Shown here in pieces: positions 7,711-41,858 of a stretch of DNA of 64,000 nt (its first letter is position 1; the number at the start of each line of letters is the position of its first letter). A program made the position numbers and the translations under genes. This stretch comes from Thalassospiraceae bacterium LMO-JJ14 (lineage in GTDB: Bacteria; Pseudomonadota; Alphaproteobacteria; Rhodospirillales; Casp-alpha2). The notes beneath the pieces were generated by a model. The model made no database searches. It saw only the letters and a list, made by a program, of their open reading frames with translations, and was not told where the DNA came from. The stretch is taken from contig CP134604.1 in assembly GCA_021555105.2 (NCBI GenBank), forward strand, positions 3,774,001 through 3,838,000. Direction: 5' to 3'.

Positions 7711-8376
7711 CTATGCCACGGCTTCGCGTAGGGCTTGCGCAGTCGCCCAGGGCGTCAATGCCAGGGCCGCCAGAAGAACACCCCCCAGCAGCATGAGATT
7801 GGCCTTAGCACCTTCGCCGTACAGCACCGCATCGCCGGCGCCGGCAGCGAAAATCAGTACCGGGATAACCAGCGGCAGGATCAATAGCGACAACAATACC
7901 CCGCCACGCCGCGCCCCCAGGGTCAGTGCCGCGCCGATACTGCCGATCAGGCTGAGGACCGGTGTGCCGAGTAGCAGCGTCAGCAGCAGAACCGGCCAGA
8001 TCTCACCCGGCACATTCATCATCACAAATAATAACGGCGCCGCGCAGATCAACGGCACGCCGGTCGTCAGCCAGTGCACCAAAACCTTGATGCACACCGC
8101 CACTTCAAGGGCGACCGGAGACAGCACGAGAAGTTCCAGCGAGCCGTCCTCGTAATCCCCCATGAACATGCGGTCCATCGACAGCATCGCCGCCAGCAGC
8201 GCCGCGACCCAGATCACGCCCGGGCCGATCCTGGCCAGCATGTTGGGTTCCGGCCCGACACCGAACGGAAACAGCACCACGGCAATCACGAAAAAGGCAA
8301 TCACCATCAGGCTGTCGGCGCTTTGCCGCATGGCGAGACGCATTTCCCGGCGAAACAGGATCGAAACCGCGTTCAT
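7711..8376 (-). CDS. ccmB: ABC transporter permease CcmB
   Basis: Membrane component (221 aa, about six helices) of the CcmAB ABC transporter, which uses ATP to free holo-CcmE from CcmC. Diagnostic stretches include the N-terminal FRREMRLAMRQSADSLMVI, the cytoplasmic EDGSLELLVLSP loop that contacts CcmA, and the Pro/Leu-rich LLILPLVIPVLIF near the C-terminus. Its ATG overlaps the ccmA stop by 4 bp. Confidence 0.95.
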   Translation of the reverse strand: MNAVSILFRREMRLAMRQSADSLMVIAFFVIAVVLFPFGVGPEPNMLARIGPGVIWVAALLAAMLSMDRMFMGDYEDGSLELLVLSPVALEVAVCIKVLVHWLTTGVPLICAAPLLFVMMNVPGEIWPVLLLTLLLGTPVLSLIGSIGAALTLGARRGGVLLSLLILPLVIPVLIFAAGAGDAVLYGEGAKANLMLLGGVLLAALALTPWATAQALREAVA

Positions 8377-9002
8377 GCCGCCGCCCGCCGGGTCGCGGCA
8401 ATTGTCAGTGTATCTGCTGTTGATAGGCCGAGATCGGTGTGCGTAGAAATCACCGCCATGCCACCCGCGCTCAAATGCGCTTCAATCAGGACCTTGAGCG
8501 CATCCGTCGTGTCGGCATCGAGCGCCGTTGTCGGCTCATCGAGCAACCACAACGCCGCACCGGATGTCAGCATGCGTGTCAGCGTCACACGGCGGCGCTG
8601 GCCCGCAGACAGATAGCGTGCCGGCAAATCCGCAAGATGGCCGATACCGAGCGCCGCCAGCGCATCCGTAGCCGGCATCGCGGTGCTACCTGAAATCTCG
8701 GCCCAGAAGGTGACGTTTTCCATCACGCTCAGCGCCGGTTTGACGGCATCGGCATGGCCGATATAGGCAAGTCTGCGGTTATGCTCGACAGGGTCGTCGC
8801 GAATGTCTGCCCCGTCCCATGAAATGCTTCCGCTAACGGGTCGCATCAGCCCGGCCATCAAACGCAGCAGAGTCGACTTGCCGGCACCGTTGGCGCCTTT
8901 CAGAATCAAGGCATGGCCGCTGGTCACGGCAAAGCCGGTGCCGCTGAGCACCAGCCGCTCGCCTCTTATGCATTCGATATCCTGGCCACTGAATTCCGAC
9001 AT
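8373..9002 (-). CDS. ccmA: ATP-binding protein CcmA
   Basis: Cytoplasmic ATPase of the CcmAB complex and first gene of the maturation operon. At 209 aa from ATG 9002 it is a compact ABC domain with Walker A GANGAGKST, signature LSAGQRRRV, Walker B LWLLDEP and a terminal switch histidine in ISTHTDL. The signature reads LSAGQ rather than LSGGQ, as is common in CcmA. An upstream in-frame ATG would add 27 residues without family similarity. Its promoter should lie in the gap that also holds the candidate small RNA. Confidence 0.94.
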   Translation of the reverse strand: MSEFSGQDIECIRGERLVLSGTGFAVTSGHALILKGANGAGKSTLLRLMAGLMRPVSGSISWDGADIRDDPVEHNRRLAYIGHADAVKPALSVMENVTFWAEISGSTAMPATDALAALGIGHLADLPARYLSAGQRRRVTLTRMLTSGAALWLLDEPTTALDADTTDALKVLIEAHLSAGGMAVISTHTDLGLSTADTLTIAATRRAAA

Positions 9003-9099
9003 TTCATCCTCTGAAAATGCCCGGAAAACGTACCCGATGGCCGGTACTAAGGAAAGACGGAGGCGCATGTCTGTGAAATTCACGTTGCATCAAAACAAT

Positions 9100-9243
9100 G
9101 AAAATAAAACGGCCGGGTCGCTCCCTGGGGGAAGTCTGACCCGACCGGTTAGTTTCGGCGCTGAGCGCCGATAGGGGACCAGAGAGGGGGGTCTCTGGTG
9201 CATAGACGAGGAGGTCTATGATTACGAAATTAGACAAAGATTG
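9100..9243 (-). ncRNA. candidate trans-acting small RNA with anti-Shine-Dalgarno-like loops
   Basis: Read on the minus strand, this stretch folds into four consecutive hairpins. The first (9220-9201) has a perfect 7-bp stem CATAGAC/GTCTATG around a CUCCUC loop. The second (9198-9179) has a perfect 7-bp stem CCAGAGA/TCTCTGG around a CCCCCC loop. The third (9170-9156) is CGGCGC/GCGCCG around UCA. The fourth (9146-9111) pairs GGTCGGGTC with GACCCGGCC (8 of 9) and is followed by GTTTTATTTT, an intrinsic-terminator shape. A CATAAT -10-like element lies at 9256-9251, so transcription could begin near 9243. Loops of the CUCCUC type are known from alphaproteobacterial cuckoo and alpha-r14 sRNAs; membership here is inferred. 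It could also be the leader of ccmA, but the terminator argues for a separate transcript. Confidence 0.6.
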
Positions 9244-9259
9244 TGGCGCTATTATGGCA

Positions 9260-9282
9260 CCTAACATTACAAATTTGTTAGG
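9260..9282. promoter_or_regulatory. inverted repeat, possible operator
   Basis: CCTAACA (9260-9266) and TGTTAGG (9276-9282) form a perfect 7-bp inverted repeat. Nested inside it is the 10-bp palindrome ACAAATTTGT (9269-9278), on a different centre. It lies just upstream of the -10-like element proposed for the small RNA, where a repressor or activator site would be expected. A regulator cannot be named. It could also be a short transcribed hairpin. Confidence 0.35.
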
Positions 9283-41336: not shown

Positions 41337-41744
41337 TCAGGGGTAGGTTGTCGTCGCCGTCGCCGAAGCGATGGAGCCACTGAAAAAGCCGTCGCTCTCC
41401 TTGGCTTTGACCGACCACTCATAATCATGCGAACCGCTCGGCGGGCAAGGGCTCTTATACGTGAAAGCCCCCGGCTGGATAACATCCTGCCCGGTATATT
41501 CGATGGTTCCCCCGCCATGAGCGTATGACGGTTTATCAAGGTCGGTCAGCGTAAACGACAGGAACTTGGTTCCCGCAGGCACGTTTTTCAGCGTGAACGT
41601 CGGGTTGGGAACGGTATTCGGATTCCCCGTCGTGCACAGCGGAATATCGCCCCATTCGAAGGCCAGGGAGAAATCATCCGCCGCCGCATGCTACACCCCT
41701 GTCAGGGATACCAGAACGCTCAAGACACCCAGAGTTTTAAGCAT
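41337..41744 (-). pseudogene. PEBP-family (YbhB-like) secreted protein interrupted by a UAG in the signal peptide
   Basis: ATG 41744, with GGAG 7 nt upstream, opens a signal peptide (MLKTLGVLSVLVSLTGV) that runs into TAG at 41693-41691. The same frame then continues as HAAADDFSLAFEWGDIPLC and on to a TGA at 41337. The body resembles the phosphatidylethanolamine-binding/YbhB family: FTLTDLDKPSYAHGGGTIEY, then YKSPCPPSGSHDYEWSVKA. With a sense codon at position 18 the protein would be 135 aa with an Ala-x-Ala-type cleavage site. No usable in-frame start lies between the stop and the domain. I read it as a recent nonsense mutation (CAG to TAG would suffice); a sequencing error is the other explanation. 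Confidence 0.75.
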
Positions 41745-41858
41745 GTCGTGTCTCCTATACTTTGGTTTCTGGCCCATCGTTTCGCATATTCAATTCCCCT
41801 ACAAGTATAATATCTTTAGCCTGAGCGGACGACACGGCCCGAAACACGAGGAACCCCC

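Follow-up and report, generated by a model that had tools for sequence, protein, structure and literature searches.

The DNA upstream of ccmA in Thalassospiraceae bacterium LMO-JJ14, within the 64,000-nt stretch analysed here (positions 3,774,001 to 3,838,000 of contig CP134604.1; hereafter, the window), raises the question of what is encoded between this gene and a paaK-like gene, its neighbours on the two sides. A preliminary description, made from the sequence, had proposed a trans-acting sRNA of the cuckoo or alpha-r14 kind with Shine-Dalgarno (SD)-complementary loops. We have asked whether there is an RNA gene at this locus, how widely it is conserved, what may activate it, and to which of the known sRNAs it is comparable.

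A Free-Standing RNA Gene Upstream of ccmA

The minus strand of positions 9101-9220 encodes a free-standing sRNA gene, with its own promoter, four hairpins and a terminator (Table 1). All four hairpins of the preliminary description, and its U-rich tail, are present at that place and on that strand, both in the sequence and in the fold, and its coordinates (9100-9243) are correct, the promoter reaching further, to about position 9256. The C-rich anti-SD-like loops and the intrinsic terminator, which had been read as those of an alphaproteobacterial sRNA, are also supported. A 181-nt stretch folds with a minimum free energy (MFE) of -64.8 kcal/mol, whereas 200 dinucleotide shuffles give -41.9 +/- 4.1 kcal/mol (z = -5.62), and 0/200 shuffles reached that MFE. 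A DNA search of its own genome found the sRNA as a single copy.

Table 1. Coordinates of the sRNA, its parts, its predicted promoter elements and ccmA in the window.
Feature	Positions	Strand	Evidence or remark
sRNA, predicted, ~120 nt	9101..9221	-	5' end deduced from the -10 element
HP1: CAUAGAC-CUCCUC-GUCUAUG, loop CUCCUC	9201..9220	-	Fold; double changes at 6/6 consensus pairs, 57 sequences
HP2: ACCAGAGA-CCCCCC-UCUCUGGU, loop CCCCCC	9178..9199	-	Fold; core common to the second group
Linker CCCCUA between HP2 and HP3, single-stranded, C-rich	9172..9177	-	C-rich motif in 49/57
HP3: UCGGCGC-UCA-GCGCCGA	9155..9171	-	Fold; 57-row alignment
HP4, terminator hairpin with small internal mismatches	9110..9147	-	Fold
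U-rich tail UUUUAUUUU after HP4 (HP4 and tail form the intrinsic terminator, 9101..9147)	9101..9109	-	
Predicted -10 TAATTT, 16 nt from the start of CGCCACA; family YTNAAT	9227..9232	-	
Activator site CATAATAGCGCCACAAT, predicted; half-sites spaced 11 bp, proposed regulator ChvI	9240..9256	-	Promoter consensus; chvI promoters
ccmA, syntenic, downstream of the sRNA and outside the proposed RNA	8373..9002	-	TIGR01189, 221 bits (cut-off 131.6)

The comparison with Rfam, also suggested beforehand, placed the sRNA in no Rfam family. At the gathering score, the search of the whole window gave no match for the sRNA, and with the local stretch at E values up to 10 the best one was Scr3202 (19.1 bits; cut-off 52), with ar7 at 12.4 bits (cut-off 60); Rfam may have no alpha-r14 model.

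The gene order around the sRNA is also conserved. By tblastn, 57 of 66 loci have ccmA downstream and in the orientation of the sRNA, at no more than 202 nt in 46 of them, and the upstream neighbour is either the paaK-like gene, as in the own family and in some others, or, in other families, acnA in divergent orientation.

Conservation and Covariation Within the Order of the Host

Homologues of the sRNA were found by DNA search in 48 of 100 relatives, all seven congeners included. The first-group relatives that carry titles (24 stretches) are MAGs labelled Rhodospirillales, Rhodospirillaceae or Proteobacteria. In a MAFFT alignment of 25 homologues (A1), with a structure obtained by RNAalifold, HP1 (AUAGACCUCCUCGUCUAU) and HP2 (CCAGAGACCCCCCUCUCUGG) are near-invariant, stems included, and HP3 and HP4 differ among the members, with compensation. 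This alignment holds 38 double-change cells, whereas shuffling gives 12.8 and the slid controls never exceed 9.

The model R1 extended the sRNA to many families of the order, with matches in 117 of 297 genomes, a figure that is too high; when 40 regions with weaker matches were read, four of them (L120, L122, L123, and L124) were rejected, and the other 36 have a similar architecture, several distant ones folding differently. From 60 loci supplied, 57 could be fitted to R1 at E <= 0.001 (A3), showing double changes at 27 of 28 pairs and 207 double-change cells, against 39.7 when shuffled and at most 32 in slid controls, in a model-fitted alignment that is biased toward the structure. In distant families the HP1 stem has been swapped (e.g., AUGCGGCAUCCCAUGCUGCAU, AUAAACAAACCCCCUCGUUUAU, AUCAGGCCUCCUGAU) and its loop is still C-rich. 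Over the same 57 rows, the C-rich motif is found in 42 HP1 loops, 52 HP2 loops, and 49 linkers, as well as in 7 HP3 loops and 22 loops of the HP4 terminator. Compensatory stem changes with the C-rich loops kept, which the preliminary description had named as its own test, are seen in the relatives.

In L106 and L108, HP3 is enlarged into a long hairpin, and the remaining layout of the RNA is unchanged. The own genome also contains a second, unrelated C-rich sRNA candidate (L123, G000:C1:2537328-2537416, minus strand), with relatives at L120 and L124; it has a conserved CCCTTCCCTCAAGAGCA and a terminator, and it has no match in Rfam.

A class-wide search with the model R2 gave matches in 40 of 385 genomes at E <= 0.001. 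We have read by eye 26 of the 29 non-own loci, and they are either simple terminators or RNAs of other kinds, several of them with GGGCGUUUCCUCCCU; in none of these 26 was the promoter site found, nor a match to ccmA, ccmB, paaK or acnA. Several class-wide loci (L168, L170, L171, L179, L182, L184, and L187) are a different sRNA family, of the alpha-R8/SisA-D/MmgR kind: ahead of a terminator they carry GGGCGUUUCCUCCC, which is similar to UUUCCUCCCU, the core of alpha-R8.

A Homologue in a Second Group of Alphaproteobacteria

A search for CcmA, covering 76 genomes of the class, gave a list of 30 loci. Among the 29 that are not the own locus, R1 matched four at E <= 1, all of them just upstream of ccmA. 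With one of these four, L150 (genome G324), as DNA query, matches were found in 40 of 78 genomes. The hairpin GGAGACUUCCCCUCUCUG is present in all 30 second-group loci that were read, exact in 29 of them and with two changes in the other one, and it aligns with HP2 of the window (AGAGACCCCCCUCUCUG). The sequence of a core hairpin, GAGAC-YYCCCC-UCUC, is kept across both groups. Downstream of the hairpin, ccmA is found in 19 of the 30 loci, many have a paaK-like gene upstream, and in 27 of the 30 a permissive pattern detects a TCACAAT-N2-CGCC-type site that precedes the hairpin by 61-64 nt. The second group carries a homologue of the sRNA at this locus. A search of the plasmid collection for this second group gave no match.

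Other lineages have multi-hairpin C-rich RNAs and TCACA-type repeats upstream of ccmA (L136, L143, and L158), too divergent for a good alignment. The L158 homologue, used as query against 76 genomes, retrieved only itself and one 30-nt match.

The sRNA Promoter and the Search for Its Regulator

The promoter of the family can be written as CATAAtNTCGCCACA(A/T)T-N7-YTNAAT, with two half-sites 11 bp apart, i.e., one helical turn, and it is found in 58 of 60 loci. In the -10 region of these 58 loci, T occupies position +16 in 78% and position +21 in 81%; since the anchoring allowed up to three mismatches, a small number of rows could be wrongly placed (the matrix gives 2 of 59 a negative score). 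Direct repeats overlapping the -35 region are typical of OmpR-family activators. The activator site is the sole perfect match in the own genome, where nine sites were found at up to two mismatches against eight for the reversed control, and thus no wider regulon is visible by motif. The exact promoter pattern was found in 0 of 385 genomes class-wide, a weak negative, since the pattern also missed the copy of the window itself.

The own genome encodes ten Trans_reg_C (OmpR-type) proteins, whose loci we have scored with a promoter matrix built from 59 sites. Only one of the ten has a tandem pair, with sites of 11.9 and 10.5 bits separated by 22 bp, on the coding strand and immediately upstream of the regulator gene (L232 / L266, G000:C1 near 991150), and these tandem sites before chvI are the basis of the regulator assignment. 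The operon encodes the response regulator, a ChvG-like kinase, an HPr kinase domain, RapZ, EIIA-man, and a PEP-utilising (EI-like) enzyme. The kinase matches NF058527 (4.7e-137, 458 bits), under the model cut-off of 740, and for the regulator no ChvI model was matched in NCBIfam. The name ChvI rests on the operon, arranged as chvIG-hprK, and on the sequence of ChvI. Such a chvIG-hprK arrangement has been described (PMC6237742).

The assignment was then tested as a prediction. ChvI was found in 91 of 100 genomes. A site of at least 8 bits lies within 330 nt upstream in 22 of the 30 chvI loci listed, against 0 of 174 downstream control stretches, 2 of 52 upstream regions of window genes (one of the two belongs to the sRNA described here), and none of the 9 other regulators. 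The corresponding Fisher p value of 2.4e-11 is overstated, since many of the chvI loci belong to close relatives and are not independent. The second half-site alone passes in 16 of 30 chvI promoters and in 6 of 52 upstream regions of window genes, so the enrichment is not due only to the TATAAT -10 box. The remaining 8 of the 30 listed chvI promoters score under 8 bits, L262 clearly so, and among 48 family members the association between the presence of the sRNA and that of ChvI was not significant (p 0.11).

The site of the window, GCC-ATAATAGC-GCC, agrees with the N-GCC-N8-GCC consensus of S. meliloti ChvI, as cited in PMC9731502, and departs from the motif TTGC-N3-GCAA proposed for Caulobacter ChvI. 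ChvI has been reported to bind its own promoter in Caulobacter, by ChIP-seq (PMC9731502), and its own upstream region in S. meliloti (PMC3687685), and in Caulobacter it has been reported to control the sRNA ChvR (PMC6237742). We infer with good support that ChvI controls the sRNA described here, as far as promoter sequences can tell. On the plus strand of the window, a strong matrix site of 14.5 bits, CGGAATATCGCCCCATTC, occupies positions 41640-41657; the ORF that starts at 41858, about 200 nt further downstream, is a possible further target of the same regulator.

Proposed Mechanism and Alternative Explanations

With this structured and conserved gene, and a promoter site that it has in common with chvI, the locus probably encodes a ChvGI-activated, Hfq-type trans-acting sRNA that blocks SD sequences, a mechanism in which we have reasonable confidence. 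Phosphorylated ChvI, from the ChvG/ChvI envelope-stress two-component system, would bind the two half-sites overlapping the -35 region, leading to transcription from a start near position 9220, and the RNA of about 120 nt would stop at its own terminator. The rigid stems would hold open the HP1 and HP2 loops (CUCCUC and CCCCCC), which, together with the CCCC of the linker, would pair with the SD sequences of the targets (AGGAGG, GGGG) and block their translation, the targets being probably envelope or transport genes. The sequence features of an Hfq-dependent trans-acting sRNA are found, i.e., its own promoter, an intrinsic terminator, and an Hfq gene in the same genome. A target scan over the 52 gene starts of the window gave generic SD pairing only.

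The same trans-acting sRNA might answer to another OmpR-type regulator that also controls chvI (CenR, PhoB or an unknown one), which we consider somewhat unlikely. Direct repeats at 11 bp are generic in the OmpR family, and the CenR motif TGA-N8-TGA, as given in PMC9275681, reads in reverse as TCA-N8-TCA, which occurs in some of the promoters; however, that the site is present in the chvI promoter alone among ten OmpR-type regulators fits autoregulation. The mode of action could also be different, with the RNA titrating an RNA-binding protein or a G-rich partner RNA in place of pairing with SD sequences. In the own family HP1 and HP2 are near-invariant down to their stems, beyond the needs of loop display, and Caulobacter is reported to have a sponge of C-rich sRNAs, CrfA (PMC12559287), but other families change the stems and keep the C-rich loops, and we regard titration as unlikely.

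The proximity of ccmA on the same strand in most loci would suit a cis-acting leader or attenuator of ccmABCD, in which a signal-dependent refolding would let transcription read through the terminator. In 9 of the 66 loci, however, ccmA is absent downstream; two of these are too short to tell (L022 and L088), and the other seven (L023, L024, L029, L099, L102, L116, and L118) have 1.4-3 kb of room and yet lack it. In 11 further loci ccmA lies more than 500 nt away, and in L085, L087, and L089 the nearest intervening ORF is called on the opposite strand. With ccmA missing or distant in these loci, the RNA is not simply a ccmA leader, and no alternative fold excluding the terminator was noticed in a search that was not systematic, which makes this explanation improbable. 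It is hardly credible that the stretch is instead a small protein gene: an 87-aa frame is open at 9004-9267, but it is broken in relatives by indels of many lengths that leave the stems intact. We retain the ChvGI-activated, SD-blocking sRNA as the preferred explanation.

Significance

The literature searched, outside whose scope lay the original cuckoo and S. meliloti ChvI-consensus papers, describes no sRNA at ccmA. Two published studies gave no evidence of its expression: the main text of an A. brasilense sRNA paper (PMC7685610) does not contain 'ccm', and an M. gryphiswaldense paper (PMC9549626) names one sRNA, BjrC80. We have classified the RNA as a new sRNA family of a known kind, absent from Rfam, to which it would add a family supported by covariation. 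In enterobacteria, envelope-stress regulators are paired with conserved sRNAs, such as MicA and RybB with sigma-E, and CpxQ with CpxR.

ChvGI is conserved through the alphaproteobacteria, symbionts and pathogens included, and ChvR, which is reported to occur in C. crescentus only (PMC6237742), is the one ChvGI-controlled sRNA of which we found a description. Whether the sRNA at ccmA is a conserved arm of the alphaproteobacterial ChvG/ChvI system is, in our estimate, an evenly balanced question: it would be an undescribed family that occurs in at least two order-level groups (taken as separate orders solely from the kinship label 'same class') and is located between acnA or the paaK-like gene and ccmA, with the species-specific ChvR as a functional analogue only. 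If true, ChvGI would gain, through a widespread sRNA whose promoter is of the ChvI type, a conserved post-transcriptional arm and a testable regulon.

Comparison With Known sRNAs

The sRNA resembles alpha-r14, NfeR1, and cuckoo in its C-rich anti-SD loop motifs and in being a standalone gene with a conserved promoter, and NfeR1 is reported to silence ntrB via the anti-SD motifs of its loops (PMC10746234). That paper defines alpha-r14 by CCUCCUCCC in each of three hairpins, by stems that differ strongly, and by a promoter controlled by LsrB and NtrC. In contrast, the loops in the window are CUCCUC, CCCCCC, and UCA, and CCUCCUCCC is absent from HP1, HP2 and the linker in the 57 rows; HP3 is not C-rich, and the gene is single-copy by DNA search. 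The promoter also differs, since over 58 loci it is without CTTAGAC-N17-CTATAT and that of alpha-r14 is reported to have an LsrB site (PMC10746234), and these known sRNAs are reported from other families (PMC10746234, PMC7143759). The membership of the cuckoo or alpha-r14 kind put forward in the preliminary description is thus not borne out, given the lack of a CCUCCUCCC loop, HP1 and HP2 near-invariant in the own family, and another promoter.

The alpha-R8/SisA-D/MmgR sRNAs have in common with our sRNA a C-rich anti-SD signature and a terminator, but the core of alpha-R8, UUUCCUCCCU, is reported as single-stranded (PMC12559287). GsrN of Caulobacter likewise exposes a C-rich loop, but it is described as SigT-driven, with homologues usually near the general stress locus (PMC5869019). 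Our sRNA has no EcfG/SigT promoter and is not near phyR-nepR-ecfG. CcsR1-4 of Rhodobacter, with their C-rich loop motif, are similar as C-rich alphaproteobacterial stress sRNAs. They differ in their reported co-transcription with ccaF1, RpoHI/HII promoter and processing by RNase E (PMC10253847), whereas our sRNA is not downstream of a DUF1127 gene, its neighbours being the paaK-like gene and ccmA.

ChvR of Caulobacter is also a standalone sRNA with several stem-loops; it is under ChvI and our sRNA carries a site common to chvI promoters. It acts on chvT through its stem-loops (PMC6237742). It differs in being reported as C. crescentus-specific, upstream of recF/gyrB and pairing with chvT (PMC6237742), whereas our sRNA sits at ccmA with acnA or the paaK-like gene. 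The best reading is that this sRNA works like NfeR1/cuckoo and ChvR while belonging to neither family.
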